A DNA stretch of 64,000 nucleotides, taken from the NCBI RefSeq assembly GCF_001741865.1, contig NZ_CP017147.1, positions 2,719,001-2,783,000 of the forward strand, given 5' to 3'. Within the stretch, counting starts at the first letter, position 1. Each line of letters starts with the position of its first letter. The DNA is from Bosea vaviloviae. GTDB lineage: Bacteria > Pseudomonadota > Alphaproteobacteria > Rhizobiales > Beijerinckiaceae. The notes under the pieces were generated by a model, which saw only the letters and a list, made by a program, of their open reading frames with translations, was not told the DNA's origin and made no database searches. Positions 4,501 to 31,541 of the stretch are shown here, piece after piece. Both the position numbers and the translations under genes were made by a program.

Positions 4501-5613
4501 ATGACGGCGTGCGGTTGGCTGAGGGGAGCTCTTTCGGGCGTGGCGCTGGGGTTTACGCTTCTCGTTGGGAGCGCGGCAGACGCACAGACCAAGGAGCTGC
4601 GGATCTATAACTGGTCCGATTATGTCGATCCCGAGGTGCTCGACGCCTTCAAGAAGGAAACCGGGATCACCGTCGTCTACGACACTTTCGACCAGATGGA
4701 GACGGTCGAGACCAAGCTGCTCGCCGGCAAGACCGGCTATGACCTGATCGTGGTCACGGCCTCCTTCCTGCCGCGCCATATCCCGCTCGGGCTCTATGCG
4801 CCGATCGACGCCAACAAGGTGCCGAACCTCAGGAACGCCTGGCCGGAGATTCAAGGGCGGCTCGCCAAATACGATCCCGGCAACAAATACGCCGTCGATT
4901 ACATGTGGGGCACCACCGGCATCGGCTACAACGTCGCCAAGATCAAAGAGCGGCTCGGGCCTGACGCCGTGATCGACAGCTGGAAGATCATCTTCGAGCC
5001 CGAGCAGCTCAAGAAGCTCTCGAATTGCGGCGTGCATGTGCTCGATGCCGTCGAGGAGATGTTCCCGGCCGCCCTGCGCTATCTCGGGTTGAACCCGGAT
5101 TCCAAGACCGAGGCCGACCTCAACAAGGCCGGCGAATTGCTGCGCAAGATCCGGCCGCACATCCAGAAGTTCCACTCCTCGGAATACATCAACGCGCTCG
5201 CCAATGGCGATATCTGCCTCGCCGTCGGCTATTCCGGCGACGTGCTGCAGGCCAAGAAGCGGGCCGAGGAGGCCAAGAACAAGGTCGAGATCGCCTATGC
5301 CATCCCGAAGGAAGGCGCACTGATGTGGTTCGATTCCTTCGTCATCCCCAAGGATGCCGGCAATCCCGAGGCGGCGCTGGCCTTCATCGATTTCGTCAAC
5401 CGCCCGGCCATGGCGGCGAAGAATTCCGACTTCATCCAATACGCCAACGGCAACCTCGCCTCGCAGCCTTTGCTTTCAGCGTCCGTGCGCGGCAATCCCG
5501 GCATCTACCCGTCGGAAGCCGTGATGGCGCGGCTCTATACGATCACGCCCTACGACCAGAAGTCGCAAAAGCTGGTCAACCGGCTCTGGACCCGCGTCAA
5601 GACGGGCAAGTGA
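4501..5613 (+). CDS. Polyamine-type ABC transporter substrate-binding protein (PotF-like)
   Basis: A periplasmic binding protein of the spermidine/putrescine class (370 aa). The start MTACGWLRG follows AAGGGGAG and begins a signal peptide ending near GSAADAQ. The mature start ELRIYNWSDYVDPEVLDAFKKETG is the PotD/PotF hallmark, and later blocks (VDYMWGTTGIGYN, AVGYSGD, PKEGALMWFDSFVIPKDAGN) match the ligand-binding fold. It heads an operon with an ATPase and two permeases downstream. Its TGA is embedded in an imperfect 14-bp tandem duplication that separates it from the ATPase gene. The ligand could be putrescine, spermidine or another amine. Confidence 0.93.
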   Translation: MTACGWLRGALSGVALGFTLLVGSAADAQTKELRIYNWSDYVDPEVLDAFKKETGITVVYDTFDQMETVETKLLAGKTGYDLIVVTASFLPRHIPLGLYAPIDANKVPNLRNAWPEIQGRLAKYDPGNKYAVDYMWGTTGIGYNVAKIKERLGPDAVIDSWKIIFEPEQLKKLSNCGVHVLDAVEEMFPAALRYLGLNPDSKTEADLNKAGELLRKIRPHIQKFHSSEYINALANGDICLAVGYSGDVLQAKKRAEEAKNKVEIAYAIPKEGALMWFDSFVIPKDAGNPEAALAFIDFVNRPAMAAKNSDFIQYANGNLASQPLLSASVRGNPGIYPSEAVMARLYTITPYDQKSQKLVNRLWTRVKTGK

Positions 5614-5634
5614 GCGTGGCCAAGTGAGCACGGT
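5607..5634 (+). repeat. Imperfect 14-bp tandem duplication at the stop/start junction
   Basis: CAAGTGAGCGTGGC is followed by CAAGTGAGCACGGT (11 of 14 positions equal). The first copy contains the binding-protein stop overlapping a GTG (GTGA at 5610-5613). The second contains GTGA at 5624-5627, where a GTG can start the ATPase. Between them GTG AGC GTG GCC AAG TGA forms a five-codon ORF linked to both neighbours. Confidence 0.8.
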
Positions 5635-6811
5635 AACGGGGCAGGGGGCGGCTCTCATGCGCAAGGCCTCGCCGGGCAGCGTGCGCCGCGCCTTCCAGCC
5701 CTGGAACGACCCGCTGGCGCGCCCGCTGGTGGAGTTCCGAAATGTCACCAAGCGCTTCGGCGCGGTGACGGCGGTCGATGGGCTGTCGCTGTCGCTCTAT
5801 CCGCGCGAATTCTTCGCGCTGCTTGGCCCCTCCGGCTGCGGCAAGACCACGCTGATGCGGATGCTGGCGGGGTTCGAGCGGCCCGATTCCGGTGAGATCC
5901 TGCTCGACGGCGTCGACATCACCGCCGTGCCGCCGCATCTGCGCCCGGTCAACATGATGTTCCAGTCCTATGCGCTGTTCCCGCATCTCAGCGTCTCCGA
6001 CAATATCGGCTACGGGCTGAGGCGCGAGGGCCTAGCCAAGCCCGAGATCGCCCGCCGCGTCGCCGAGATGCTGGCGCTGGTGAAGCTGGAGGGGCTCGGC
6101 GCGCGCCGGCCCGACCAGCTCTCCGGCGGGCAGCGCCAGCGCGTCGCGCTGGCCCGTTCGCTCGCCAAGCGGCCAAAACTCCTGCTGCTCGACGAGCCGA
6201 TGGCGGCGCTCGACCGCAAACTGCGCGAGGCGACGCAATTCGAATTGATGGATCTGCAGAGCACGCTCGGCACGGCCTTCATGGTCGTCACCCATGATCA
6301 GGACGAAGCGATGACGATGGCCGACCGCATGGCGGTGATGGACCATGGCCGGCTGGTCCAGATCGGCCCCCCGGATGTGATCTATGAGGCTCCGATCAAT
6401 CGCTATGTCGCCGAATTCGTCGGCGACATCAATGTCCTGGAGGGGCGCGTCTTCGCCGTTGACGGCGACCTCGTCAGGGTCGAGAGCGCTGTCGCCGGCC
6501 CGCTCGAACTGGATGAGGACGCAGCCAGCTTTGTGCCGGGCGACGCGCTGCTCATAGGCTTGCGACCGGAGAAGATCGCGCTCAGCCATGACGAACCGGG
6601 GCAGGGCGTCAACAAGGTCAGGGGCGAGATCTGGGACATCGGCTATCTCGGCGACGTCACCATGATCCAGGTCATGGTCGGCGGCGAAGGCGGCACGCTT
6701 TTGAAGGTCGCGGTGGCCAACCGCACGCGGCGGATCGAGCGGCCCTTCGCCTGGGACGATGCGGTCTGGCTGTCCTGGGACGTCGAAGCCGGGTTGGCCT
6801 TGCAGCGATGA
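5624..6811 (+). CDS. Polyamine-type ABC transporter ATP-binding protein (PotG/PotA-like)
   Basis: ATPase of the MalK/PotA class: Walker A GPSGCGKTTLMRML, Q-loop FQSYALFPHLSV, signature LSGGQRQRVALARSLA, Walker B LLLLDEPMAALD, H-loop VTHDQDEAMTMADR, and a C-terminal TOBE-type region (IGLRPEKIALS). It energises polyamine uptake with the two permeases downstream. GTG 5624 gives 395 aa and sits in the GTGA of the junction repeat; ATG 5657 (384 aa), preceded by GGGCAGGGGG, is an equally plausible start because homology begins only at LVEFRNVTKRFG. It is followed by about 400 bp of nested palindromes before the permeases, unusual within a transporter operon. Confidence 0.93.
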   Translation: MSTVTGQGAALMRKASPGSVRRAFQPWNDPLARPLVEFRNVTKRFGAVTAVDGLSLSLYPREFFALLGPSGCGKTTLMRMLAGFERPDSGEILLDGVDITAVPPHLRPVNMMFQSYALFPHLSVSDNIGYGLRREGLAKPEIARRVAEMLALVKLEGLGARRPDQLSGGQRQRVALARSLAKRPKLLLLDEPMAALDRKLREATQFELMDLQSTLGTAFMVVTHDQDEAMTMADRMAVMDHGRLVQIGPPDVIYEAPINRYVAEFVGDINVLEGRVFAVDGDLVRVESAVAGPLELDEDAASFVPGDALLIGLRPEKIALSHDEPGQGVNKVRGEIWDIGYLGDVTMIQVMVGGEGGTLLKVAVANRTRRIERPFAWDDAVWLSWDVEAGLALQR

Positions 6812-7208
6812 GCACTTCTATGCGGTTTTCGACGCGCAACTTTGCCGGTAAGCGCGCGGGGAACCCTCTCCCGGAGGGAGAGGGCAGGGTGAGGGGTAGG
6901 CCCCCGGACCAGTTGCGTGACGACCTTGCCGTCATTGCGAGCGCAGCGAAGCAATCCAGGGGATGTAGAGCGAACCCTCCTGGATTGCTTCGCTGCGCTC
7001 GCAATGACGATGGAGCAGCTGTCAGGGTGCGGCCAAAGCGTCAAACGGCCTACACCTCACCCCTGCCCCTCTCACTGAACTCGGGCCTGCCCGAGTTCAG
7101 CACTTCAGAGTGTCCAAGTCGGGTAGACCCGACTTGGATGCAGGAGAGGGGTTCCCCGCGCTTCCTGCTGCAGGTCGCGGATGAGGGCTGGAGAGAGAGG
7201 GCGGCTCC
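6812..7208. repeat. Nested palindromic repeats inside the polyamine transporter operon
   Basis: The outer element runs from GCGCGGGGAACCCTCTCC (6855) to the complementary GGAGAGGGGTTCCCCGCGC (about 7143-7161). It belongs to the family also found complete at 35.3 and 47.7 kb, sharing the core words CGGACCAGT and CGTCAAACGGCC. A second palindromic family (CATTGCGAGCGCAGCGAAGC...GCTTCGCTGCGCTCGCAATG, about 6933-7009) is inserted in its loop. The right arm is split by two small palindromes, CTGAACTCGGGC/GCCCGAGTTCAG and CCAAGTCGGGT/ACCCGACTTGG. No gene is present. Confidence 0.9.
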
Positions 7209-8105
7209 GTGAGCGCTGCCTCCCGCCCGCTGCGCACCCGCCTCGTCGCGGTGCCCTATCTCTGGCTGCTCGCCTTCTTCCTCGTGCCATTCGCCATCGT
7301 GCTGCGTATGGCGTTCTCGCATGCCGATACGGCGCTGCCGCCCTATGCGCCGCATTTCGCAGGTTTTGCAGCAATCGGGCCGTTCCTGGCCGCGCTCGAT
7401 CTCGACAATTTTCGCCTGCTCGCCGACGACACGCTCTACTGGCAGAGCTATCTCTATTCCTTGCGTATCGCCGGCCTGACGACCTTGCTTGCGCTCGCGA
7501 TCGGCTATCCGCTTGCCTATGCGATGGCGTCCGCTCCCAAAAGCTGGCGAGGCGCCTTGCTCGTCCTCGTCATCCTGCCGTTCTGGACCTCCTTCCTGAT
7601 CCGCGTCTACGCCTGGATCGGCATCCTGCGGCCCGATGGTTTGCTGGACGCGGCGCTCATCGGCCTTGGCCTCACGCGGGAACCGCTCAGGCTCTTGAAC
7701 ACCGAGGCTGCCGTGCTGATCGGCATGGTCTATTCCTATCTGCCCTTCATGGTGCTGCCGCTGTTTGCTGCGCTCGAAAAGCTCGATCGCTCCCTGCTCG
7801 AGGCCGCCGCCGATCTCGGCGCCAGGCCGTGGACGGCCTTCCTGACCGTGACCTTGCCGCTTTCCATCCCCGGCGTGCTCGCCGGCTGCGCGCTCGTCTT
7901 CATTCCGGCGGTCGGCGAATTCGTCATTCCCGATCTGCTCGGCGGGCCCGACACCATCATGATCGGCAAGGTGCTGTGGACGGAGTTCTTCTCCAACCGC
8001 GACTGGCCGCTTGCCTCGGCGGTGGCGGTCGTGCTCCTCATCCTGCTGGTCCTGCCTCTGGCGTTGCTCCAGCGCGCGCGGCTCGCGCGGGGAGGGGCGG
8101 CATGA
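7209..8105 (+). CDS. Polyamine-type ABC transporter permease (PotB/PotH-like)
   Basis: Integral membrane permease of 298 aa with about six transmembrane helices; the first helix is YLWLLAFFLVPFAIVLRMAF. The EAA-type loop that contacts the ATPase is EAAADLGARPWTAFLTVTLPLSIPG. It starts at GTG 7209 after GGAGAGAGAGG. It forms the channel with the next permease, whose ATG overlaps its stop (ATGA, 8102-8105). A much longer frame overlapping this gene is an artefact of GC-rich codon bias. Confidence 0.93.
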   Translation: MSAASRPLRTRLVAVPYLWLLAFFLVPFAIVLRMAFSHADTALPPYAPHFAGFAAIGPFLAALDLDNFRLLADDTLYWQSYLYSLRIAGLTTLLALAIGYPLAYAMASAPKSWRGALLVLVILPFWTSFLIRVYAWIGILRPDGLLDAALIGLGLTREPLRLLNTEAAVLIGMVYSYLPFMVLPLFAALEKLDRSLLEAAADLGARPWTAFLTVTLPLSIPGVLAGCALVFIPAVGEFVIPDLLGGPDTIMIGKVLWTEFFSNRDWPLASAVAVVLLILLVLPLALLQRARLARGGAA

Positions 8106-8896
8106 ACCGGCTCGGGCCCGGCCTCATCCTGGCGCTCGTCGCCGGTTTCGCCTTCCTCTATCTGCCGATCCTGGCGCTCATCGCCTATTCCTTCAACGCC
8201 TCGCGCCTCGTCACCGTCTGGGGTGGGTTCTCGACGCATTGGTATGGCGCGCTCATGCACAACGAGCCGCTGCTCGACGCCGCCTGGCTGAGCCTGCGAC
8301 TGGCCTGCGTCTCGGCGACGCTGGCGACTGCGCTCGGCACGCTCGCGGCCCTGGCGCTGGCGCGCCATGGCCGGTTCCGCGGCCGGACCTTGTTCTCCGG
8401 CATGGTGCTCGCGCCGCTCGTCATGCCGGAGGTCATCACCGGCCTGTCATTGCTCCTGCTCTTCGTCGCGGCCGATATCGAGCGCGGCTTCTGGACCGTG
8501 ACGATCGCCCACGCGACCTTCAGTCTGGGCTTTGCCTGCATCGTCATCCAGGCCCGGCTCGTCGGCTTTGACCGCTCGCTCGAGGAGGCGGCGCAGGATC
8601 TGGGCGCGACGCCGCTGGCGACCTTCTGGACCGTGACCTTGCCATTGATCTGGCCGGCGGTCGCGGCCGCCTGGATGCTCGCCTTCACGCTCTCGCTCGA
8701 CGACCTCGTGATCGCGAGCTTCACCACCGGGCCGGGCGCGACGACCCTGCCGATGCGGCTTTATTCAGCCGTGCGGCTCGGTGTCTCCCCGGAGATCAAC
8801 GCTGCCTGCACCTTGATGATCGGCGCGGTCGCTGTTGCGGTGATCGCAGCCTCGCTCCTGCTGAAGCGCGAGCGGATGGTCCGCCCAGATAAATAG
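8102..8896 (+). CDS. Polyamine-type ABC transporter permease (PotC/PotI-like)
   Basis: Second inner-membrane permease, 264 aa, with six predicted helices beginning PGLILALVAGFAFLYLPILAL. The cytoplasmic EAA motif is EEAAQDLGATPLATFWTVTLPLIWP, and SLDDLVIASFTTGPG is the signature common in PotC/PotI proteins. Its ATG lies in the ATGA overlap with the preceding permease, which implies translational coupling. It is the last gene of the transporter operon. Confidence 0.94.
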   Translation: MNRLGPGLILALVAGFAFLYLPILALIAYSFNASRLVTVWGGFSTHWYGALMHNEPLLDAAWLSLRLACVSATLATALGTLAALALARHGRFRGRTLFSGMVLAPLVMPEVITGLSLLLLFVAADIERGFWTVTIAHATFSLGFACIVIQARLVGFDRSLEEAAQDLGATPLATFWTVTLPLIWPAVAAAWMLAFTLSLDDLVIASFTTGPGATTLPMRLYSAVRLGVSPEINAACTLMIGAVAVAVIAASLLLKRERMVRPDK

Positions 8897-8992
8897 CAGG
8901 TGAATGGCGGCCTCAAGGCCCGTTCACCCCCGACATGCGAATGTCCGGGTCAGGCGAGGGAGTGTCCTTCGCCGTCAGACAGGACAGGGACC

Positions 8993-9247
8993 ATGTTCCG
9001 TACATTCGCCGGCCTCTCCACCCTCGCCATCGGCGCTGCGGCGCTGGCTGTTGCGAGCTTCGCGCCGATCACATCCGCGAGCGCCTTCGATGGCCGCTAT
9101 GAGCGCGGCTATCAACGTGCGGAGTATGGTTGGCGACCGGCGCCGCCCGTCGTCCACGGCTATTGGGGCCGGCGCCATTGGCGCCATCAGTATGAAGGTC
9201 ATGGCTTCCGCGCGCCGCCACCGGCCTATGGTTACGGCTGGCGCTGA
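8993..9247 (+). CDS. Small secreted Tyr/Arg/His-rich protein
   Basis: An 84-aa protein starting at ATG 8993 after AGGACAGGGACC. A signal peptide (LSTLAIGAAALAVASF, cleavage near SASA-F) precedes a short mature part rich in Tyr, Arg, His, Pro and Gly (YWGRRHWRHQYEGHGF, PPPAYGYGWR). Such proteins are common in Hyphomicrobiales envelopes and have no assigned function. A hairpin at 9259-9288 (AAGCGGCAGGC with GCCTACCGCTT) just downstream has no T-run. A similar small protein follows at 9484. Confidence 0.7.
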   Translation: MFRTFAGLSTLAIGAAALAVASFAPITSASAFDGRYERGYQRAEYGWRPAPPVVHGYWGRRHWRHQYEGHGFRAPPPAYGYGWR

Positions 9248-9355
9248 CGTGAGGCATCAAGCGGCAGGCGCGCTTGTGCCTACCGCTTCGCATGGCTGCT
9301 GCATGTGTCGCCAAATGGAACAAAACAGCCGAGCGGGAGGTTTATCAATCACGTC

Positions 9356-9458: not shown

Positions 9459-9483
9459 CGTGACAGAAACGAGGACCACGATC

Positions 9484-9837: not shown

Positions 9838-9865
9838 CCGCTCGCCCGACTTCGCAACCGATGTC

Positions 9866-12043: not shown

Positions 12044-12873
12044 GGCTGTCTCCCGTCGGATTGATCCCACCAATGGTGGAAATGATGCACCGGTCCGTGG
12101 CCGTGGCCAACCTGAACCTGGTCGGCGGCGGCGATGGCCGCCGAGATATAGCGCTTCGCATGGCCGACGGCCTCGGGCAAAGCGAGCCCCTTGGCGAGGC
12201 CCGCCGCGATCGCCGATGACAATGTGCAGCCCGTGCCATGGGTGTTGCGCGTCGCCAGGCGCGGTGCGTCGAAGCGCTGGCGGGCGCCGTCGGAGAGCAG
12301 CAGGAGGTCGCTGCTGATGTCACCTGCGCCATGCCCGCCCTTGATCAGGACGTTCGCGGCTCCAAGCGCTGCGAGCTTGCCGGCCTGCTCGTCGATTGCC
12401 GCATCGGTCTCGGCGATGCCGGTCCGCAGCAACGTGGCGGCCTCGGGCAGGTTCGGCGTGATCAGCGTCGCCAGCGGGAAGAGGTGACGGCGGATCGCGT
12501 CGACGGCGTCGTCCTGCAGCAATTTTGCGCCCGACGCTGCGATCATCACCGGATCGAGCACGATGTTACGGGCCTTGTGGCGGATCAGCCCGGCAGCGAC
12601 GGTCTCGATCAATTCCGCCGTCGCCAGCATGCCGATCTTGACGGCAGCCACGTCGAGATCCTCGAACACCGCATCGAGCTGCTGGGCGACGAACTCGGCC
12701 GGCACGGCGTGGATCGCGCGGACGCCTGTCGTGTTCTGCGCGGTCAGCGCGACGATGACGCTGGCGCCATAGACCTGATGCGCCGCGAAGGTCTTGAGAT
12801 CGGCCTGGATGCCGGCACCGCCGCTGGAATCGGAGCCGGCGATGGTCAGGGCGACGGGGGGCGGTGTGCTCAC
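12040..12873 (-). CDS. thiD: Hydroxymethylpyrimidine/phosphomethylpyrimidine kinase
   Basis: A 277-aa ribokinase-fold enzyme that phosphorylates HMP and HMP-P in thiamine biosynthesis. Diagnostic segments are [21 protein letters not shown] near the N-terminus, [24 protein letters not shown], the KGGHG element and the anion-hole motif [18 protein letters not shown]. It starts at GTG 12873, overlapping the antitoxin stop by four bases, and its stop overlaps the mutB start. The C-terminal tail is His-rich ([15 protein letters not shown]). Coupling to a mutase operon is unexpected for a thiamine gene. Confidence 0.95.
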
Positions 12874-13166
12874 TCGGCGGCTTCCAATGTGATCCTGAGT
12901 TTGGTGCCCGTGGCCCGGGCGTAGCGCTCCAGCGTCCGGGTCGAGGGCTTGCCCCGGCCGCTTTCGAGCCGCGCGATCACGGATTGCGTCGTGCCCATGC
13001 GCTGGGCGAGCTCTTCCTGCGTCAGCCCAGCCTTGGTGCGGGCGCGGATCAACGAGGTCAGCAGGGCGAATTCCTCTTCGAGCGCGTCATATTCGCGCTT
13101 GAACTCGGGGTCGCTCATCTGTGCGAGACCCCATTCCCGAACGCTGAGTGCCTGGTCCTTTGTCAT
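12870..13166 (-). CDS. XRE-family antitoxin (HigA-like)
   Basis: A 98-aa protein whose C-terminal half is a helix-turn-helix ([40 protein letters not shown]). It is the likely antitoxin and autorepressor for the RelE/ParE-fold protein encoded just upstream, matching the toxin-first order of HigBA systems. Its ATG is the second of two ATGs in a perfect 17-bp tandem duplication, and its stop overlaps the thiD start (GTGA). It therefore bridges toxin and thiD in one translationally coupled chain. Confidence 0.88.
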
Positions 13167-13191
13167 GTCACGCTCTTTGTCATGTCACGCT
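13158..13191 (-). repeat. Perfect 17-bp tandem duplication between toxin and antitoxin genes
   Basis: CTTTGTCATGTCACGCT occurs twice in direct succession (13158-13174 and 13175-13191). Each copy carries ATGA on the minus strand. The upstream copy provides the toxin stop and an ATG; the downstream copy provides the antitoxin ATG. ATG ACA AAG AGC GTG ACA TGA between them is a six-residue ORF overlapping both neighbours by ATGA. Confidence 0.95.
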
Positions 13192-13515
13192 CTTGGCACG
13201 CTCCCGCGCGAGGCGAAGTTCCTTCGTCGGAGTCTGCTCGGTCTTCTTGATGAAGACCCGCACGATCACGACCCTTTTGCCCGTCGCTGTGAGATAGATC
13301 GCCCTTGCAATTCCATCCCGGCCGGTCAGCTGCAATTCCCAAAGTTTGTCTCCCAGCGGCTTGATCCAGCCAAATGGAAGGGCATCAAGGCCTTCATCCT
13401 CGATGATGTTCGAATAACGATATAATCGTGACCGCATGTCGCTCGGAAGAGCATCTGCTTCGGCCTTGACCACGGCGTTGAGGAATTCGAACGACCAACC
13501 AGACTTCGTTTTCAT
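13180..13515 (-). CDS. RelE/ParE-superfamily toxin (HigB/Gp49-like)
   Basis: A 111-aa protein with the compact toxin fold suggested by LDALPFGWIKPLGDKLWELQLTG followed by ARAIYLTATGKRVVIVRVFIKKTEQTP, a pattern of phage-derived Gp49-like and HigB mRNA interferases. It begins 12 bases after the mutA stop and is followed by the XRE antitoxin, forming a type II module inside the methylmalonyl-CoA mutase operon. Its C-terminus contains ELRLARERAKS, consistent with the usual charged tail. Activity is inferred from family membership. Confidence 0.87.
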   Translation of the reverse strand: MKTKSGWSFEFLNAVVKAEADALPSDMRSRLYRYSNIIEDEGLDALPFGWIKPLGDKLWELQLTGRDGIARAIYLTATGKRVVIVRVFIKKTEQTPTKELRLARERAKSVT

Positions 13516-17020: not shown

Positions 17021-17021
17021 C

Positions 17022-18428: not shown

Positions 18429-18643
18429 TCTTGATCTCCTTGGGCAGCGTCAAGGTCGGGGCAGCGTCAAGATCGTCGCCCGGTGAGCATGCTCATTCTC
18501 ACTCGCATTAGAATGGTTGATCTAATGAGCATCGAGAAGATATGCTGAGACGCTTGGTAAGCACTGTAAAGGTGACATATATTCGTGAAATCAGACTCGA
18601 GCGCAAACCAGAATTGCTCTGCAATTTGGATTAGAATATCTAA
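18429..18643. promoter_or_regulatory. Divergent amidase/LysR control region with ATTAGA palindromes
   Basis: This AT-richer gap contains the perfect palindrome GAGCATGCTC (18485-18494), the inverted pair ATGCTCATT (18489-18497) and AATGAGCAT (18524-18532), and ATTAGA-N8-TCTAAT (18507-18526). A second copy of the half-sites, TTAGA-N3-TCTAA (18631-18643), abuts the regulator ATG at 18644. The two ATTAGA/TCTAA sites are good candidates for binding by the LysR protein, one for the amidase promoter and one for autoregulation. This is inferred from symmetry only. Confidence 0.6.
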
Positions 18644-19534
18644 ATGATAGATCAGAAGCTTCCGCCCCTGAACGCGCTCCGGGCCTTTGAAGCCGCGGCG
18701 CGGCATCTCTCCGTGAAGATCGCGGCGGAGGAGCTGTGCGTGACGCCAGGAGCCGTCAGCCAGATGCTCAAAATTCTCGAAGAGCATCTTGGGGTGAAGC
18801 TGTTCGATCGGGTGCATCGAGGCATCAATCTGACCCAGGCAGGGCGGGACTACCTGCCGCCCGTCCGAAATGCCTTCCGTCAAATCGCCGAATCCTCTCG
18901 GCGCGTGGCCCTTTCCGTCGATACCGGCGTCCTGACCGTCAGCGTCACGCCTTTCTTTGCTTCGGCCTGGCTCGTTCCACGCATGAAGTCGTTTCAGGAT
19001 GCCCATCCGAGCATCGATCTTCAGATCCTCGCAAGCAGCGCACTCGTGGACTTTTCGCGCGGCGGCGTTGACATCGCCGTGCGTCATGGCATGGGCCGAT
19101 ACCCTGGTCTGCGGAGTTATCGGGTCGTCTCAGTCGAAATGGTCCCCGTTGCTGCGCCTTCGCTTGTCGAACGCCTGGGCATGCCGGCAACACCTGCCGA
19201 GTTGGCACGGTGGCCGCATGTTCATGATGCGGATCGCAAAGGTTGGAGCCTCTGGTTTCAAGCGCAAGGCCTCGACGAGGTCGCACTGCCCCGCGGAGCG
19301 TCTTTCGACGATTCCGGTCTGCTCTTGAATGCAGTGATAGCCGGCCAGGGCGCCGGCTTGCTCCCGGCCGCGATGGTGGCGTTCGACGTGGAAGAGGGGC
19401 GCCTCGTCAGGCTCGCGAAAGCGACCCACATGGAGTCGTTTGCATATTACCTTGTCTATCCAGAAACAAACCACGGCAGTCCAAAAATCTCGGCATTCAA
19501 AGATTGGATCCTCAACGCTGCTTCGGCGGCCTGA
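18644..19534 (+). CDS. LysR-family transcriptional regulator (GcvA-like)
   Basis: A 296-aa regulator. The winged HTH lies at residues 9-67 (LNALRAFEAAARHLSVKIAAEELCV, TPGAVSQMLKILEEHLGVKLFDR), in the GcvA subgroup style with the RHLSVKIAAEEL helix. The effector domain follows from about residue 95 (LTVSVTPFFASAWLVPRM). It is transcribed divergently from the amidase-MFS pair across a 215-bp gap with paired palindromes, so it probably controls them in response to the amidase substrate or product. Confidence 0.92.
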   Translation: MIDQKLPPLNALRAFEAAARHLSVKIAAEELCVTPGAVSQMLKILEEHLGVKLFDRVHRGINLTQAGRDYLPPVRNAFRQIAESSRRVALSVDTGVLTVSVTPFFASAWLVPRMKSFQDAHPSIDLQILASSALVDFSRGGVDIAVRHGMGRYPGLRSYRVVSVEMVPVAAPSLVERLGMPATPAELARWPHVHDADRKGWSLWFQAQGLDEVALPRGASFDDSGLLLNAVIAGQGAGLLPAAMVAFDVEEGRLVRLAKATHMESFAYYLVYPETNHGSPKISAFKDWILNAASAA

Positions 19535-19699: not shown

Positions 19700-20536
19700 A
19701 TGATGCTGAATCCATATGCCTTGCGGGCCTTGGCAGCTTGCTCGATGCTGCTCCTGACGCCCGCCTTCGCCCAGGCGCAAACACCGAACACGCCGATCCG
19801 GCCCGATGCCGTGGTTTTTTTCACGGACCTGAAGGATGGCGCCGTCATTCCGCCGAAGCTCACGCTCAAGTTCGGCGCATCCAATTTCGAAGTTGTTCCG
19901 GCGGCAGTCAAAAAAGCCAATTCCGGCCATCATCATCTTCTTATCGACAGCCCGGTGCCGCCGTTAGGCGAGCCGATTCCGAGCGATCCCGGCCATCTGC
20001 ATTTCGGGCGCGGCCAGACGGAAGCCGAGCTTGTTCTCGCTCCGGGCCCGCATACGCTGCAACTGCTGCTCGGCGACCATGACCATGTGCCGCATAATCC
20101 TCCGATCATGTCCGCGGTGATCCGCGTGACGGTGTCCGACAAGGCCACCGCGCCCGGGCGCACAGCGTCGCTGCCGGATTCGGAGGTCTATTTTATCGGC
20201 CTTCCCAACGGCTCGGTCGTTCCGCAAAACCTGACGGTCCGGTTTGGACTGCGCAATATGGGGGTTGCCCCGGCAGGCGTCGTCAAGGCCGGCACCGGGC
20301 ATCACCATCTCATCATCGACCGGCCCGCGCCCGCTTTGGGGGAACCCATCGCCAGCGATCCGAACCATCTCCATTTCGGCCGCGGTGAGACTGAGAAGAA
20401 GATCACGCTTGCGCCGGGCCGGCACACGCTGCAGCTCGTGCTGGGCGATCAGGACCATATCCCGCATGATCCACCGGTCATGTCACAGCGGATCGAAGTG
20501 AGGGTGGTGCGGCCGCATCGGCAGCGGCGCTGGTAG
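19700..20536 (+). CDS. Secreted protein with two tandem DUF4399 domains
   Basis: A 278-aa protein starting at ATG 19700 after AAGGAGCTGG, with a signal peptide ending near FAQAQ. Two copies of a His-rich domain follow: residues about 35-145 (GHHHLLID, HLHFGRGQTE, HTLQLLLGDHDHVPHNPP) and 155-265 (GHHHLIID, HLHFGRGETE, HTLQLVLGDQDHIPHDPP). DUF4399 proteins normally have one such domain. The conserved His clusters suggest metal binding in the periplasm. Function is otherwise unknown. Confidence 0.85.
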   Translation: MMLNPYALRALAACSMLLLTPAFAQAQTPNTPIRPDAVVFFTDLKDGAVIPPKLTLKFGASNFEVVPAAVKKANSGHHHLLIDSPVPPLGEPIPSDPGHLHFGRGQTEAELVLAPGPHTLQLLLGDHDHVPHNPPIMSAVIRVTVSDKATAPGRTASLPDSEVYFIGLPNGSVVPQNLTVRFGLRNMGVAPAGVVKAGTGHHHLIIDRPAPALGEPIASDPNHLHFGRGETEKKITLAPGRHTLQLVLGDQDHIPHDPPVMSQRIEVRVVRPHRQRRW

Positions 20537-20608
20537 ACAGGTGCGGGCAAGACAGGGTGCGGGCAAGACAGGGTGCGGGCAAGACAGGTGTGGGCAAGAC
20601 AGGAGTGG
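20537..20608 (+). repeat. 15-16 bp tandem repeat directly after a stop codon
   Basis: Units ACAGGTGCGGGCAAG, ACAGGGTGCGGGCAAG (twice) and ACAGGTGTGGGCAAG, plus a partial ACAGGAGTGG, begin at the base after the DUF4399 stop. The units differ by one base in length, as expected from slippage. Confidence 0.9.
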
Positions 20609-23254: not shown

Positions 23255-23305
23255 CGACTGAACACCAAGGCGTTTAAGACGCCGTACAAAGGGGAGTGAA
23301 GAGAT

Positions 23306-24595: not shown

Positions 24596-24599
24596 GCCG

Positions 24600-25478
24600 A
24601 TGAACAACCGCGCGACCGCGACGATCCATGGCTGGCTGCTGCTGCTGCCGGCCATGGCTTGCCTGGCCCTGTTCACGCACTGGCCCGCGATCGCGAGCTT
24701 CGTCGACAGCTTCATGTCGACCCCGCGGGCGCGCCGCCCGGCGCGTTTCGTCGGGCTCGACAATTACCAGCAGATGCTGGCCGACCCGATCTTCTGGAAG
24801 GCGATGGCGAATAATCTCTGGTTCGCCGCCGGCACGATCCCCACCTCGATCGGGCTCGCCCTGCTGATGGCGGTCTGGGTCAACGACAAGATCGCTGGCC
24901 GCACTTTGGTCCGGATGGCCTATTTCACACCGACCATCCTGCCGATGATCGCGGTCGCCAACATCTGGCTGTTCTTCTTCACCCCGCAATACGGCCTGCT
25001 CGAGCAGATCGTCGCTGCCTTCGGCGGGCGCAGCACCAACTGGCTCGGATCGCAGGACACCGCGCTCTACGCCGTCACCATCGTTGCGATCTGGAAGGAG
25101 GCCGGCTTCTTCATGATCTTCTACCTCGCGGCGCTGCAGGCGATCCCGCCCAGCCTCGGGGAGGCGGCGGCGATCGAGGGCGCCTCGCGCTGGACGTTCT
25201 TCCGGCGTGTCCAGTTCCCGCTCCTGATGCCGACGACGCTGTTCGTGCTGATCAATGCGGTGATCAACGCCTTCCGCATGATCGACCATATCTTCGTGAT
25301 GACGCGCGGCGGCCCGGACAATGCGACGACGCTGCTGCTGTTCTACATCTACCAGGTCGGCTTCGGCTTCTGGGACACCAGCTATGCCGCGGCGCTGACC
25401 TGCGTGCTCCTGCTGCTGCTCGCGCTGGTGGCCTTCGTCCAGTACGGCTGGCTTGAACGCAGGACGCATTATCAATGA
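24600..25478 (+). CDS. ABC transporter permease (UgpA-like)
   Basis: A 292-aa inner-membrane permease with six helices, starting MNNRATATIHGWLLLLPAMACLALF. The EAA loop is EAAAIEGASRWTFFRRVQFPLLMPT, and MIDHIFVMTRGGPDNATTLLLFYIYQ is the conserved C-terminal block of the family. It starts four bases after the binding-protein stop and ends in an ATGA overlap with the next permease. Confidence 0.94.
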   Translation: MNNRATATIHGWLLLLPAMACLALFTHWPAIASFVDSFMSTPRARRPARFVGLDNYQQMLADPIFWKAMANNLWFAAGTIPTSIGLALLMAVWVNDKIAGRTLVRMAYFTPTILPMIAVANIWLFFFTPQYGLLEQIVAAFGGRSTNWLGSQDTALYAVTIVAIWKEAGFFMIFYLAALQAIPPSLGEAAAIEGASRWTFFRRVQFPLLMPTTLFVLINAVINAFRMIDHIFVMTRGGPDNATTLLLFYIYQVGFGFWDTSYAAALTCVLLLLLALVAFVQYGWLERRTHYQ

Positions 25479-26341
25479 GCGGCGCGCCTCGACCGCAGCC
25501 GGCGGCGACCACCCGTCCAGACCCTTACGCGCCGAAGGGCCTGGTGCTAACGCTCGAATCGACCGGCGCGATCCTGCTCGCTCTGATCTGGGTGCTGCCC
25601 CTGGCCTATGCCGTCTGGGCCGCGATTCATCCCGCCGAGTACACGACCCGTTTCGTGCTGACCGCGCCGCTGACGCTGGATAACTTCACCCGCGCCTGGG
25701 CGGCCGCGCCCTTCGCACGCTATTTCCTCAACACCTTCATCCTCGTCACCATGATCCTCGCCTTCCAGCTCGTGCTGGGGACGCTGGCGGCCTATGCGCT
25801 GGCGCGGCAGGATTTCTGGGGGCGGGACATCGCCTTCGCGCTGATCCTGGCACAGCTGATGATCATGCCCGACGCGCTGATCGTCGAGAACTACCGCACC
25901 CTCGCCAGGGTCAATCTGATCGACACGATCCCGGCCATCGCCTTGCCCTATATCGCCTCGGCCTTCGGCATTTTCCTGCTGCGGCAGACTTTCAAGACCG
26001 TGCCGAAGGAGCTCGACGATGCTGCCCGCGTCGAGGGCGCGAGCCCGCTGCAGGTGCTGATGAAGGTCTATGTGCCGCTCGCCAAACCGACCTATATCGC
26101 CTACGGGCTGGTCTCGGTGAGCTATCACTGGAACAACTTCCTCTGGCCGCTGCTGGTCACCAATTCGGTGGAGTCGCGGCCGCTGACCGTCGGCCTCCAG
26201 GTCTTTTCGTCGAGCGATCAGGGCATCGACTGGGCGGTGATCTGCGCCGCGACGCTGATGACCTCGGCGCCATTGCTGGTCGGCTTCCTGCTGTTCCAGC
26301 GCCAGTTCGTGCAGAGTTTTATGCGCGCAGGAATCAAGTGA
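25475..26341 (+). CDS. ABC transporter permease (UgpE-like)
   Basis: A 288-aa second permease. The EAA loop is DDAARVEGASPLQVLMKVYVPLAKP, and YHWNNFLWPLLVTNSVESRPLTVGLQVF is the typical family segment. Its ATG overlaps the upstream stop. Its own stop (GTGA at 26338-26341) lies in the first copy of a 17-bp tandem duplication that leads into the phosphatase-family gene. Confidence 0.94.
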   Translation: MSGAPRPQPAATTRPDPYAPKGLVLTLESTGAILLALIWVLPLAYAVWAAIHPAEYTTRFVLTAPLTLDNFTRAWAAAPFARYFLNTFILVTMILAFQLVLGTLAAYALARQDFWGRDIAFALILAQLMIMPDALIVENYRTLARVNLIDTIPAIALPYIASAFGIFLLRQTFKTVPKELDDAARVEGASPLQVLMKVYVPLAKPTYIAYGLVSVSYHWNNFLWPLLVTNSVESRPLTVGLQVFSSSDQGIDWAVICAATLMTSAPLLVGFLLFQRQFVQSFMRAGIK

Positions 26342-26365
26342 CGACATGAATCAAGTGACGACATG
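26332..26365 (+). repeat. Perfect 17-bp tandem duplication at the permease/phosphatase junction
   Basis: AATCAAGTGACGACATG occurs at 26332-26348 and 26349-26365. The first copy holds the permease stop (GTGA) and an ATGA; the second supplies the ATG at 26363. A chain of overlapping short ORFs results: GTG ACG ACA TGA, then ATG at 26346 running to TGA at 26376-26378, which overlaps ATG 26375 of the next gene. Confidence 0.95.
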
Positions 26366-26374
26366 GCGGCTCGG

Positions 26375-27211
26375 ATGAAACTGATCACCTGGAACATTCA
26401 GTGGGCCCGCGGCATGGACAACCGCGTCGATCCGGCACGCGTCGTCGCTCATGCCCGGCAGATGGCGGATTTCGACGTGCTCTGCCTGCAGGAGGTCGCG
26501 GATAATTTCCCCGAGCTCGACGGCAATGACGAGACCAACCAGTTCGGCCGCTTCGCCGAATTGCTGCCGGGCTTCACCGCGATCGAGGGCATCGGCGTCG
26601 ATGTCGACGACGGCAGGGGCGGCCGCAGTCGCTTCGGCAACCTCTTGCTGACGCGCTATCCTGTCGCCCAGGCGCTGCGCCATCTCCTGCCCTGGGAGGC
26701 GGCCGAGACCCGCAACATGCCGCGCATGCTGATCGAGGCGATGGCGCTGACCCCGCTCGGCCCGGTCAGGCTGATGACGACGCATCTCGAATACTCGTCC
26801 TCGCAGCTGCGCGCCGCACAGGTCGACGGCATCCGAGAGGCCCATCGCATGGCGCTCGCCCGCCATGACAAGCCGCGCGAGGCCGGGCCGCACACCTATC
26901 GGATGACGCCGGGCTCGGCGAGCGCCGTGCTGACCGGCGACTTCAACATGCGGCCCGATGATCCGGTGCTGGCGCGATTGCTGGCGCCATTCGACGGTGG
27001 CGAGCCGCCGCTCGTCGACCTCTGGGCCTCGGTGATGGGCGAGGCGCCGCATCCGCCGACCGCGAACCTGTTCGACCAGATCTATGGCGAGCCCGGCTGC
27101 CTCGACTATGTGCTGGCGACGCCCGATCTTGCGGCGCGCGCCCGCGCTGTCATCTGCGATGTCGAGACCAAGGTCTCCGACCACCAGCCGATCCTCGTCG
27201 AGTTCGACTGA
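26375..27211 (+). CDS. Endonuclease/exonuclease/phosphatase-family hydrolase
   Basis: A protein of about 278 aa with the metal-dependent EEP fold: MKLITWNIQWARG at the N-terminus, LCLQEV (metal Glu), TTHLEYSS, LTGDFNMRPDDP (catalytic Asp/Asn) and VSDHQPILVEF (catalytic His) at the C-terminus. ATG 26375 is chosen because family members start close to this motif and because it overlaps a mini-ORF stop; ATG 26363 adds four residues. Its place after a Ugp-type importer and before an inositol-monophosphatase-family gene suggests hydrolysis of an imported phosphodiester rather than DNA. That role is inferred. Confidence 0.88.
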   Translation: MKLITWNIQWARGMDNRVDPARVVAHARQMADFDVLCLQEVADNFPELDGNDETNQFGRFAELLPGFTAIEGIGVDVDDGRGGRSRFGNLLLTRYPVAQALRHLLPWEAAETRNMPRMLIEAMALTPLGPVRLMTTHLEYSSSQLRAAQVDGIREAHRMALARHDKPREAGPHTYRMTPGSASAVLTGDFNMRPDDPVLARLLAPFDGGEPPLVDLWASVMGEAPHPPTANLFDQIYGEPGCLDYVLATPDLAARARAVICDVETKVSDHQPILVEFD

Positions 27212-27230
27212 CCGCCGCGCCGGACCACCC

Positions 27231-27400
27231 TGGAGCATTTGCGCGCTTCTCCGAAACGCGCAAATGCTCCAGCTCCTTATTTGATCGCATTGTCTTCACG
27301 CGAGCCGGTATCCACTTCGCTCGAAAACGCTCTAGGCTTTTGTTTTGACGCGCTTTCTTCACGCGAACCGGCTTCCACTTCGCTCGAAAGCGCTCTAACC
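27231..27400. repeat. Palindrome plus duplicated Rhizobiales-type repeat
   Basis: TGGAGCATTTGCGCG (27231-27245) and CGCGCAAATGCTCCA (27257-27271) are a perfect 15-bp inverted repeat. Two near-identical copies of a unit built on TTCACGCGAnCCGG and CCACTTCGCTCGAAA follow at about 27296-27335 and 27356-27397. The same CTTCGCTCGAAAA core appears inverted at 21811. Confidence 0.85.
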
Positions 27401-27412
27401 GACCGGACCACG

Positions 27413-28237
27413 ATGATCTTCACACGCCAGGACCATGAGACGCTTGCAGGGATACTCGCCGAGGCGGGCCGCCGCGAGGTCATGCCGCGCTTCCGCAACC
27501 TGGCCGAGGGCGAGATCCGCGAGAAGCGCTCGGCGACCGATCTCGTCACCGAGGCCGACGAGGCGGCGGAGCGCTTCATCAGCGCCGAGCTCGCCCGGGC
27601 CTTTCCGGGCGCCGCGCTGATCGGCGAGGAGGCGGTCGCCGCCGATCCGGCGCTGGTCGCGCGTCTCGGCGATGCCGAGCTCGCCTTCGTCATCGACCCG
27701 ATCGACGGCACGCTCAACTACGCCTCTGACCTGCCGCTCTTCGCCGTCATGGCCGCGGTGCTGGTCAGGGGCGAGGTCGTCGCTGCGGTGATCCACGATC
27801 CCATCGTCGAGGACAGTGCGATGGCGCTGCGCGGTGAGGGCGCCTGGCTCGGCTCCGCTGGCGGCAGGAGCCGCGACCTGCGGGTGGCGCCAGCCGCCGC
27901 TCCGCGCGAGATGACCGGCATGATGAGCTGGCAGTATTTCCCGGAGCCGCTGCGCAGCAAGCTGCCGGGGCACATGCCGGCCTTCGCCAATGTGTCGTCG
28001 CTGCGCTGCTGCGGCCATGAATACCGGCTCGCGGCCGCGGGCAATGGCCACTTCCTGCTCTATGGCCGGCTCAGCCCCTGGGATCACGCGCCGGGCTCGC
28101 TGATCTATGCCGAGGCCGGCGGCCATGTCCGCATGCTGGACGGGCAGCCTTATCGGCCGGCTCAGCCGACGCTCGGCCTGCTCTGCGCGCCCGATGCGGA
28201 GAGCTGGCAGGAGATCCGCACGATCCTGCTGAGTTGA
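27413..28237 (+). CDS. Inositol monophosphatase family protein
   Basis: A 274-aa lithium-sensitive-phosphatase-fold enzyme. Metal-binding motifs are GEEAV (Glu), DPIDGTLNYA (Asp-Pro-Ile-Asp) and WDHAPGSLIYAEAGG near the C-terminus. Substrates in this family include inositol-1-phosphate, fructose-1,6-bisphosphate, histidinol phosphate and PAP. The start ATG 27413 follows the repeat-rich gap. Its position behind the Ugp-type importer and the EEP-family hydrolase points to dephosphorylating an imported polyol phosphate, but the repeats between may mean separate transcription. Confidence 0.92.
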   Translation: MIFTRQDHETLAGILAEAGRREVMPRFRNLAEGEIREKRSATDLVTEADEAAERFISAELARAFPGAALIGEEAVAADPALVARLGDAELAFVIDPIDGTLNYASDLPLFAVMAAVLVRGEVVAAVIHDPIVEDSAMALRGEGAWLGSAGGRSRDLRVAPAAAPREMTGMMSWQYFPEPLRSKLPGHMPAFANVSSLRCCGHEYRLAAAGNGHFLLYGRLSPWDHAPGSLIYAEAGGHVRMLDGQPYRPAQPTLGLLCAPDAESWQEIRTILLS

Positions 28238-28445
28238 TCGGGGCGATCTGGAGCAAAAGGGCCATGAATCTTGGGCTGGATGAAGCGCCGCCGTCCCTGC
28301 CGATATGCGTCCAGCGCTTTGAAGCCTTGCCCCGATGAGGCTATAGCGTCGAGCCGGCCCGCCGCCCGACATTGCGCCCGGAGTGTGGCTTCCCGCATGG
28401 TCGGGCGTTCTGCCCGACTGACCCTTTGATACGGACCGATACCCC

Positions 28446-29294
28446 ATGCAGGCCCTGGAGCGAGTGCTGCATCACGCCATGCGGCGCTTGCCGATCGCGT
28501 TCGTCTCGAATCTCGGCGCCCGCTTGGCCTGGCTCAAGATCCGCTTCATCGATCCGAATGTCGCCCGCAAGGCCCGCGCCAATATCCGGCAGCACTTTCC
28601 GGCGATGGCGGAGACGGAAGTCGAGAAGCTGGTCTGGCGCTTCGTCGACAATGTCGGGCGCTTGATGGCCGAGTTCTCCATCGTCCATCGCCTGACCTCT
28701 TCGGAGCGGATGGAGCTCGTCGGCATCGAGGCTCCCCGCGCCAATCTCGGCAGGATCCCGACGATCGCGCTCTGCCTGCATCTCGGCAATTGGGAGGTGA
28801 TGGCTGCGGCGATGCAGAAGATCGGCGTTACGATCGCCTCGATCTCCGAGGTGCCGGAGAATGTGGCCCATCGTGACATCGCCGAGGCGACGCGCAGCAG
28901 CCTCGACGTCAAGGTGCTGTCCCCCGACCGGATCGGTGCGCTGCAGGCGTTGTCCATTCTGAAGGGAAACGGTGTCCTCGCCATCTTCCCCGATGAAAAG
29001 CGCGGCAGCACGATGATGGCGCCGCTGTTCGGGCGTCCGCCTCACATCAAGGGCAATCTGGCGCTCGCCGCCAAGTTCGCCCGGCGCACCGGCGCGCAGC
29101 TCGTCGTCGTCTATTGCGAGCGGGTGGAGAACGTCCGGTTCCGGCTTCATTTCGAGGAGCCGTTCTTTATGGCTCCCGGCGGCAACGACGCGCTCGCCGA
29201 TGTCGCCTTCATCAACAGCCGGATCGAGCCGATCATCCTGCGCCATCTCGCGCAATGGTATTATCTGGACGACTCGATCGGGCCGATCGCGTAG
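28446..29294 (+). CDS. LpxL/HtrB-family lysophospholipid acyltransferase
   Basis: A 282-aa acyltransferase with the catalytic HLGNWE motif (His112, Glu117), FPDEKRGSTMMAPLFGRPPHIKGNLALA and GAQLVVVYCERVENVRF. Members transfer acyl chains to lipid A or other lipids at the inner membrane. There is no strong N-terminal helix, unlike enteric LpxL. A dedicated acyl carrier protein and ketosynthase follow on the same strand, a layout that recalls the rhizobial acpXL-lpxXL locus for very-long-chain fatty acids, though fabZ and dehydrogenase genes are absent here. Confidence 0.9.
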   Translation: MQALERVLHHAMRRLPIAFVSNLGARLAWLKIRFIDPNVARKARANIRQHFPAMAETEVEKLVWRFVDNVGRLMAEFSIVHRLTSSERMELVGIEAPRANLGRIPTIALCLHLGNWEVMAAAMQKIGVTIASISEVPENVAHRDIAEATRSSLDVKVLSPDRIGALQALSILKGNGVLAIFPDEKRGSTMMAPLFGRPPHIKGNLALAAKFARRTGAQLVVVYCERVENVRFRLHFEEPFFMAPGGNDALADVAFINSRIEPIILRHLAQWYYLDDSIGPIA

Positions 29295-30004
29295 AGGGCG
29301 TTTGATCCTGACGGCCTTCAGGGCTGAGCGATGGCGTTATCCTCTGCCGTCATGGTCGGGCTTGTCCACTGCTGTCCGGTTGGGGTTTGGGCCCCCTGAG
29401 CGGATCATGCACTGCGTTCCCCTCGCGAGCGGAAGCGACGCGAAGTGCCGGATGAAGGGCGCGGGGAACCCTTCTCCCGTATGGGAGAAGGGCAGGGATG
29501 AGGGTGTGCCGCCAATTGCTGGGGGCGCGACCGCGCCGCAGTGCCGGCTTCATCCTGAAAGCACAGGAGGCGATGCGGAGCCGCTTGCGCGATCTGGTTG
29601 TCTGGCCTGCCCTCATCCCTGCCCTTCTCCCACACGGGAGAAGGGTTCCCCGCGCCTGTCTCATTCGTCCCCGCCCGCTGGAATGCCTGCGATGAACGGA
29701 GCTTTTCGATCGCGCTCGCGGCGAACCGGACAGCAGTGCCACAAGGGCGAGCATGACGACCAGGTCGTCATTCCGGACGCGGCCCTCAGGGCCGGAATGA
29801 CGGCGCATAGGTGATCAGGACAGAGCCATCGAAATCATTGGCTTCATTGCAGGCCAGCCTCTCAGGATGAGGGCTGGAGTGTCCCAGCGACCCACTCCCA
29901 TGCGCTGCGCCAGGGGCGCGTTGAACCGATAAACGGTTTACGGCCCCGGTGGACTCAAGCAAATGTGCAGGCGGGCTGTTTCGAATGAGGAAAGCACTAA
30001 GACC
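29295..30004. repeat. Nested palindromes between acyltransferase and ACP genes
   Basis: An outer 33-34-bp inverted repeat has its left arm at 29349-29381 (GTCATGGTCGGGCTTG... to GCTGTCCGGTT) and its right arm at 29724-29757 (AACCGGACAGC...GGGCGAGCATGAC), imperfectly complementary. Inside it lies a second family at 29459-29656 with GCGCGGGGAACCCTTCTCC arms. A short GTCATTCCGGAC/GGCCGGAATGAC palindrome follows at 29767-29802. From 29803 to 30004 no gene is seen; TAAACGGTTTA (29930-29940) is a small perfect palindrome upstream of the ACP gene. Confidence 0.85.
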
Positions 30005-30304
30005 ATGACAAGTGAGGCGCCGCTGGTCACGATCGATGTCCTCATCGAGATGCTCAAGCAGGTCATCGCGGAAAACGCATCGCGCGGTTGCGGAAAGCTT
30101 GCGGCCGTTGCCTGGGGGGCCGAAACCTTGCTCGAGGATACCGGCTTCAACTCCTATGATTTCGTCGAGATCATCTTCAAGATCGAAGATCATTTCAACA
30201 TCGAGATCGACTACAACGCCAATAACAACATCAACGATGTGAAGACGATCGGCGAGCTTTGCGCTGAAGTCGGCAAGCTCGTGGCCAAAAAGCAGGCGGC
30301 ATGA
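30005..30304 (+). CDS. Specialised acyl carrier protein
   Basis: A 99-aa acidic helical protein. The phosphopantetheine site reads TLLEDTGFNSYDFVEIIFKIEDHFNIEI, with Ser50 as the attachment serine; the usual DSL is replaced by NSY. The start ATG 30005 follows AGGAAAGCACT. It is paired with the ketosynthase downstream, so it presumably carries chains made outside the primary fatty-acid pool for the LpxL-like acyltransferase. The last codons lie in a 15-bp repeat array, and its TGA overlaps an ATG (30301-30304). Confidence 0.88.
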   Translation: MTSEAPLVTIDVLIEMLKQVIAENASRGCGKLAAVAWGAETLLEDTGFNSYDFVEIIFKIEDHFNIEIDYNANNNINDVKTIGELCAEVGKLVAKKQAA

Positions 30305-30347
30305 AAGCAGGCGGCAAGAAAGCAGGCGGCAAGAAAGCAGCGGCATG
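30289..30347 (+). repeat. Four-copy 15-bp tandem array joining ACP and KS genes
   Basis: Units AAAGCAGGCGGCATG, AAAGCAGGCGGCAAG (twice) and AAAGCAGCGGCATG (one base shorter) run without gap. The first unit ends the ACP gene and the last contains the KS ATG (30345). The added 44 bp create an ORF ATG(30301)...TGA(30346-30348) of 15 codons, rich in Lys, Ala and Gly, overlapping both genes by ATGA. Confidence 0.95.
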
Positions 30348-31541
30348 ACGCGGATCGTCGTTTCCGGCCTCGGCATCGTCTCCCCCATCGGTTGCGACAC
30401 TGACAGCTTCTGGCAGGCCCTGCTGGCGGGGCGCGAGAGCGTGGGGGAGGCGTCCGCCTTGCCGGGCAAGGGCATCCGCGTGGCGGAAGTCCTGGGCGAA
30501 GGCTTCATGGCGGGGCTGGAGCTCCCGCGCTCGGCCTGCGACCGCAACGCCCTGTTTGCCGTCGCGGCGGCGCGCCAGGCGCTGGTAGCCGCCGGCCTTG
30601 GGAGCGGCCTGCCGCGCCCCGAGCGCGTCGGCGTCATCCTCGGCAACTCGGCCGGCGGGCAATGCAGCGTCGATGACCAGTATTCCCGGCTCTACCACCT
30701 GAACAAGCGCCCGCATCCGATGACCGTGCCCAAGGTCATGGTCAGCTCGTCGGCAAGCTGGGTTTCGATCATGTCGGGCGCGACCGGCCCTTGCTTCGTG
30801 ACATCGAGCGCCTGTGCCTCCGCGAGCCACGCCATCGGCATCGCCATGCAGTTTCTGCGCGCCGGCCTCGCCGACATCATCATCGCCGGGGGCACGGAGG
30901 CCCCGCTCTCGGCTGGAACCCTGATCGCCTGGGACGCCATGAAGATCATGTCGCGCAGCCTCTGCCGGCCCTTCGCGGCGGGGCGCGACGGACTCGTGCT
31001 GTCCGAGGGCGCGGGCGTCATCGTGCTGGAGACCGAAGCGCATGCGCGCAGCCGTGGCCTTAAGCCCGCGGTCGAGGCGGCGGGCTTCGGCTTCAGCGCC
31101 GATGCGGGCGACATCGTCGCGCCCAAGGCAGAGGGCATGGTGAGCGCCATGAGCCTGGCCCTGACCGATGCCGGGCTGAGCCCGGGCGATCTCGCTTATA
31201 TCAACGCCCATGGCACCGGCACCCGCGCCAATGACCGGACCGAGACGCTGGCCCTGAAGCGCCTCTTCGGCGAGCGGCCGTTGCCGCCGATCTCCTCGAC
31301 CAAGGGCGTGACCGGCCATGCGCTGGGCGCGGCCGGCGCTTTTGAGGCGATTGCGACGATCATGGCGATCGAGAACGACATGGTTCCGCCGACAGCCAAT
31401 TTCGACGCTGCCGACCCCGAATGCGACTTCGACTGCGTCCCCAATCAGGGCCGGGCGATGCCGATTCCGGCCGCGATGTCGAACTCCTTCGCCTTCGGCG
31501 GGATCAATGCCGCGCTGATTTTCAGGTCGCTTGGGTATTGA
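30345..31541 (+). CDS. Beta-ketoacyl-ACP synthase (FabF-type)
   Basis: A 398-aa condensing enzyme with the complete Cys-His-His triad: Cys157 in TSSACASASHAIG, His289 in INAHGTGT and His325 in GVTGHALGAAGAF. The N-terminus RIVVSGLGIVSPIG and C-terminus NSFAFGGINAALIF are typical of KAS II. It elongates acyl chains on the adjacent ACP in the cytosol. Together with the LpxL-like enzyme it forms a small lipid-tailoring locus. Confidence 0.94.
   Translation: MTRIVVSGLGIVSPIGCDTDSFWQALLAGRESVGEASALPGKGIRVAEVLGEGFMAGLELPRSACDRNALFAVAAARQALVAAGLGSGLPRPERVGVILGNSAGGQCSVDDQYSRLYHLNKRPHPMTVPKVMVSSSASWVSIMSGATGPCFVTSSACASASHAIGIAMQFLRAGLADIIIAGGTEAPLSAGTLIAWDAMKIMSRSLCRPFAAGRDGLVLSEGAGVIVLETEAHARSRGLKPAVEAAGFGFSADAGDIVAPKAEGMVSAMSLALTDAGLSPGDLAYINAHGTGTRANDRTETLALKRLFGERPLPPISSTKGVTGHALGAAGAFEAIATIMAIENDMVPPTANFDAADPECDFDCVPNQGRAMPIPAAMSNSFAFGGINAALIFRSLGY

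Follow-up and report, generated by a model that had tools for sequence, protein, structure and literature searches.

Termination-reinitiation, in which ribosomes that finish one gene restart on the next, is described for ATGA and TGATG overlaps, and direct gene overlaps are already known, as is how steeply restart depends on distance (PMC6728339, PMC10666635). The cases treated in the main text of these two papers, in which the terms 'short ORF' (open reading frame) and 'duplication' have 0 occurrences, are direct overlaps or plain spacers, and a chain of mini-ORFs does not appear to be among them. Two further systems come close. According to a 2025 review, the insertion sites of mycobacterial interspersed repetitive units (MIRUs) are start codons, where their inner ORF couples with a spacing of −4 (PMC12548453). 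The second system comprises leader minigenes and upstream ORFs (uORFs) by which ribosomes are delivered; an example is the axe-txe minigene, a very short upstream ORF that influences translation of the next gene (PMC8708949). Here, we describe gene junctions in a 64,000-nucleotide (nt) window of the Bosea vaviloviae genome (6.71 Mb, two contigs) at which tandem duplications cover the stop codon of one gene shortly before the start of the next, and mini-ORFs lead from the one to the other. The arrangement is probably best explained by duplication and a frame-selected relay of ribosomes into the downstream gene.

The 4-nt overlap at these junctions is that of known termination-reinitiation, and the ribosome event is presumably the same (PMC6728339, PMC10666635). 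Like the inner ORF of MIRUs, the Bosea mini-ORFs overlap the neighbouring gene by 4 nt. MIRUs insert at DTGA sites. They are described as mobile, repeated and dispersed elements, whereas most Bosea units duplicate the end and start of the genes at the junction itself. The sole exception is a MIRU-like insert between dppB and dppC in the relatives G001 and G032, which carries a dispersed palindromic motif (G and L labels denote genomes and loci of relatives; those in the junction families below are Bosea). The axe-txe minigene, as described, carries translation signals of its own and terminates 15 nt upstream of the gene (PMC8708949), whereas the Bosea mini-ORFs begin on the upstream stop and end on the next start. 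We found no description of relay junctions made by simple duplication in the open-licence literature on coupling or reinitiation with duplications, tandem repeats, minicistrons or small ORFs. The first-pass annotation knew of no description of such junctions as a class, but MIRUs are a clear precedent. Judged by their sequence, the Bosea junctions appear to be termination-reinitiation coupling in a new form, made by local duplication, with mycobacterial MIRUs as the closest precedent.

A tandem duplication at a 4-nt ATGA or GTGA overlap would leave both proteins intact but place the true start at a distance from the stop. Ribosomes finishing the upstream gene would restart on the RTG that overlaps its stop. 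An added length of 0 modulo 3 would then give a longer downstream protein. With 2 modulo 3, a short peptide would be made that stops at the next RTGA (R = A or G), where the ribosome could restart and hop into the downstream gene. With 1 modulo 3, it would pass the downstream start in the wrong frame. This third kind would be removed by selection, and duplications would pile up either as extensions in frame or in the form of relays with one to three mini-ORFs. For such a filter to work, ribosomes must often initiate at the stop-overlapping RTG. In reporters, coupling was reported as largely or wholly lost over gaps of 14–38 nt (PMC10666635), and an unbridged insertion of such size should therefore matter.

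The four duplicated junctions of the window, J1 to J4, comprise the following features:

4438-5613 and 5624-6811: J1 gene pair, solute-binding protein followed by ABC ATPase
5610..5627 (+): J1 mini-ORF GTG AGC GTG GCC AAG TGA, from the stop of the solute-binding gene to the GTGA at 5624
13180-13515 and 12870-13166 (−): J2 gene pair, Gp49/HigB-like protein followed by helix-turn-helix (HTH) antitoxin-like protein
13163..13183 (−): J2 mini-ORF ATG ACA AAG AGC GTG ACA TGA
26338..26349 (+): J3 first mini-ORF GTG ACG ACA TGA, from the stop of the permease gene 25475-26341
26346..26378 (+): J3 second mini-ORF ATG...GGA TGA, ending on the ATGA of the start ATG 26375
26375-27211: J3 downstream gene, Exo_endo_phos (endo/exonuclease/phosphatase)
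29963-30304 and 30345-31541: J4 gene pair, acyl-carrier-like protein (Pfam match just under the cut-off) followed by ketoacyl synthase
30301..30348 (+): J4 mini-ORF of 15 sense codons, MKAGGKKAGGKKAAA

The four duplications noted in the first-pass annotation are all present, though with corrections, and this observation is partly confirmed. At J1 (5607-5634), the 14-base-pair (bp) duplication is imperfect with 11/14 matches. J2 (13158-13194, minus strand) is an exact 17-bp tandem with an exact run of 20; its duplicated stretch was found once in the genome, in a search made for J2 alone among the junctions. J3 (26331-26365) is likewise an exact 17-bp tandem, with an exact run of 18, and recurs in G028 (16/17). 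J4 (30289-30345) is an array of about 3.9 copies of a 15-bp unit with one base lost, so that its net length of 44 is 2 modulo 3 although the unit is 0 modulo 3. A stop/start overlap had been assumed at all four junctions. Relatives of J2 and J4 indeed have plain 4-nt overlaps. At J3, the conserved start is ATG 26375 (MKLITWN), and GTG 26338 and ATG 26363 are thus not the gene start; here the duplication produces a two-hop chain.

Relays of this kind recur in other species. We compared eight junction families among Bosea genomes, namely J1 to J4 and four further families built around relays at other places in this genome. Loci without a match to one partner were dropped (J3 2/30, J4 8/17, J2 5/17, FliN-FliG 3/12). 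The families yielded 161 RTGA states, to be read as states and not as independent events: 113 were direct, 44 were relays of one to three overlapping mini-ORFs, four were dead ends, in which a stop is met without an overlapping start, and none was an overrun, i.e. an entry into the downstream gene out of frame. Hence, 157/161 arrive in the downstream frame, and the 4-nt or 1-nt stop/start overlap typical of coupled pairs is present in the 113 direct states and, linked through a chain, in the 44 relays. Two ideas put forward from the window alone, a reading-frame filter on slippage and mini-ORFs that step along by stopping at each following RTGA, find support in their recurrence at junctions elsewhere and in further species.

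J1 was traced through 50 Bosea genomes. It is direct in 38, with the stop-overlapping RTG in the ATPase frame, a relay in 11 and a dead end in G002. The inserted steps measure 14 nt in this genome, G006 (exact) and G020 (weak, 9/14), 15+14 in G032, 15+15+14 in G001 and 17+14 in G009 and G027; G010 has a two-hop chain. By eye, the relays of G039, G024 and G018 seem to stem from an altered gap and not from a duplication, and the frame runs to the ATGA at the following start. The J2 duplication is found in G001 as well, and nine homologous loci, some of them distant, have a plain 4-nt RTGA overlap. In the G001 locus L190, the match to the HigB-like toxin is limited to query residues 1-44 and the duplicated junction is retained. 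Twelve of the 15 RTGA states of J3 are relays. Three relatives of J4 carry a 33-nt in-frame extension and five a plain overlap.

Copy numbers differ between relatives in the additional families. GATase-DAO has two extra 20-bp units in this genome and in G001, three in G008 and none in G032; the remaining 26/30 are direct, and 13 of the 30 have non-RTGA stops. The 17-bp junction before a flavin adenine dinucleotide (FAD)-binding protein (L011 family, covering 29 of 50 relatives listed) has one extra unit here and in G008, three in G032 and none in G001; 26/30 are direct, and G036 has a one-hop relay in which the duplication is not clear (11/17). At DppB-DppC, 21 loci were read, with 20 of the listed relatives included, and 15 of the 21 are direct. 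One-hop duplications of 14 bp occur there in G039 (exact), G008 and G020 (both 12/14), and this genome has two hops with a first unit of 15 bp (13/15). The inserts in G001 and G032 (L359 and L360) contain inverted repeats, measure about 206 and 209 nt and form a single open frame ending on the ATGA of dppC; their palindrome core is present in 14/580 loci. FliN-FliG comprises eight RTGA states, three direct and five relay. One of the three dropped FliN-FliG loci, L547, is a one-hop relay by eye, and the two others (L550 and L551) have CTGA stops. Copy number thus varies between close species, and a tunable spacing device, as proposed in the first-pass annotation, may exist. Relay arrays might act as heritable translation dimmers, each extra copy adding a restart step with an efficiency below 1, such that copy number (0–3) would set the downstream:upstream protein ratio stepwise. 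We consider such a function unlikely.

Duplication lengths were tallied in an own-genome sample of 2.464 Mb (121 loci, 2279 called genes) by added length modulo 3 (classes 0, 1 and 2). The genes were called with a home-made codon-usage caller that misplaces some starts, and frames were therefore checked as far as 30 nt into the downstream gene. The frame and duplication-class tallies do not contain J2, whose upstream gene had a score under the cut-off of 25; in the near-duplication class tally, J1 did not reach the threshold. Exact duplications spanning the stop of a called gene numbered 16, two of them inside the window, which is thus rich in such duplications. The four at RTGA stops in any setting have periods of 17 (J2), 17 (J3), 15 and 16. 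A tally of exact duplications only was discarded for too few cases; a rule of 2 modulo 3 fails there. Near-duplications at RTGA stops followed by a co-directional gene within 100 nt fall into classes 0/1/2 as 6/0/5 (of 403 stops), those at non-RTGA stops in the same setting as 13/4/4 (of 731) and those over stops in all remaining settings as 15/18/18 (of 1896). Class 1 accounts for 0/11 at RTGA junctions versus 18/51 elsewhere (p=0.025; p=0.047 without the window). In the Bosea families, 12 of 13 clear separate events of class 1 or 2 are class 2 (p=0.003), with the events grouped by eye, three class 0 events set aside and the families selected. The exclusive rule of 2 modulo 3 formulated in the first-pass annotation does not hold, as class 0 is about equally common at RTGA junctions; the rule at RTGA stops is better worded as 'not class 1', with modest support. 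The accompanying argument that each fitting length had a one-in-three chance falls as well, because in-frame duplications are viable too and hence just one class in three is bad.

A broader comparison covered all out-of-frame junctions. A junction was called connected if the downstream frame is reached from the RTG on the stop by restarting at each RTGA or 1-nt overlap, and junctions with CTGA, TTGA and TAA/TAG stops served as controls. In the own-genome sample including the window, 32/61 RTGA junctions were connected versus 39/154 at CTGA (p=2e-4). Without the window, the values were 28/57 for RTGA, 38/149 for CTGA (p=0.0015), 8/31 for TTGA (p=0.04) and 8/57 for TAA/TAG (p=1e-4). The pattern reappeared in 80 alphaproteobacterial loci from which L229-L233, being Bosea or near, were removed: 12/22 for RTGA versus 8/33 for CTGA (p=0.04), 4/19 for TTGA (p=0.05) and 6/68 for TAA/TAG (p=2e-5). 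After exclusion of detectable duplications, RTGA and CTGA still differed in the own-genome sample (22/50 vs 36/138, p=0.02) and in the alphaproteobacterial loci (11/20 vs 8/31, p=0.04). Two-hop frames, window included, amounted to 7/16 at RTGA and 4/65 at CTGA (p=7e-4). The RTGA excess comes mainly from fewer out-of-frame overruns, which make up 16/61 versus 93/154 at CTGA in the own-genome sample (p=9e-6). At gaps of at least 0, overruns are 9/50 versus 121/210. Frame-shifted starts were rejected as an internal control, as one shifted frame begins at the stop, and a duplication of 2 modulo 3 turns the other into the downstream frame. Taken as a whole, the earlier interpretation is partly supported: evidence for a frame filter is of modest strength for duplications and better for junctions in general.

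Slippage might nevertheless be neutral, with duplications occurring anywhere, four fitting lengths being noticed and the surplus of RTGA chains arising as a by-product of copying an RTGA. A chain arises in one of three neutral duplications, and several results weigh against a frame filter. Exact stop duplications are scattered over the classes; six of the seven close co-directional ones are 0 modulo 3, and none of the six lies at an RTGA stop. The class 1 depletion fades to a marginal one with stricter thresholds (p=0.025, 0.048 and 0.083 at scores of 9, 11 and 13), class 2 against class 1 alone gives p=0.056 (0.11 without the window), and the clear events elsewhere only, with a ratio of class 2 to class 1 of 6:1, are not significant (p=0.125). 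The families were picked because this genome has a relay there. The J1 dead end in G002 contains a 16-bp class 1 duplication, and G031 has 16+14, a combination that is net in frame and was scored as direct and yet includes a 16-nt step. The other three states of J3 are dead ends, and 11/13 of its relatives with non-RTGA stops (TAA/TAG) have a connecting spacing as well, which makes J3 weak evidence. On the other side stand the absence of class 1 at RTGA junctions, the predominance of class 2 among clear family events and the excess over controls that persists at junctions without detectable duplication. We therefore regard purely neutral slippage as improbable. A mutational preference for duplications of 14, 17 and 20 bp instead of selection would fit these lengths being the commonest among the selected junctions; it is very improbable given that near-duplications over stops elsewhere are even by class.

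Selection might also act only to avoid harm. Ribosomes would start at the overlapping RTG and insertions that send them out of frame across the downstream start would be purged, but the mini-ORF would pass no ribosomes on, and translation downstream would rely on that gene's own ribosome-binding site. In keeping with this, overrun is the depleted outcome, and the ratio of connected junctions to dead ends at out-of-frame RTGA stops resembles that of controls (28:13 vs 53:36, p=0.44). Shine-Dalgarno scores of relay starts are ordinary, i.e. the same as those of other starts. Two phage sets, in which junctions sharing C-terminus, stop and gap were counted once, are without relay excess (3/17 and 4/30 vs 5/35 and 16/69 for CTGA), and the relay pattern is thus not universal. 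The control-like ratio, the ordinary start scores and the phage sets are points against ribosomes being handed on. Harm avoidance alone appears rather unlikely, however, because the seven families other than J3 contain 32 relays but 1 dead end, though the duplication itself supplies an RTGA, and because the two-hop frame is enriched.

The junctions are natural experiments, in which insertions of 14–209 nt at presumably coupled gene pairs are apparently kept when bridged by tiny ORFs. It is debated whether a ribosome, once terminated, goes on scanning or can restart only nearby (PMC12548453). Should ribosomes hop along the mini-ORFs, restart would be local and possible up to four times consecutively. 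Relay sites may thus record how ribosomes restart, and the arrays in close relatives are ready-made constructs with which the efficiency of each restart step can be measured.

One more relay was found in the window, and no duplication is visible at this junction:

52656..52670 (+): fifth relay mini-ORF ATG AGG CGC GCA TGA, between the genes 52108-52659 and 52667-54679

Outside Bosea, a 26-bp near-duplication at about position 12076 of L247 (Xanthobacter agilis) makes a two-hop relay. The window holds further repeats. A 17-bp near-duplication (18442-18475) lies at the stop of the minus-strand ORF 18467-19087, which has no Pfam match, before an amidase gene. Tandem arrays are located at 20535-20603 (16 bp, about 4.4 copies, upstream of ORF 20711), 45500-45550 (17 bp, 3 copies) and 48523-48597 (21 bp, 3.6 copies).

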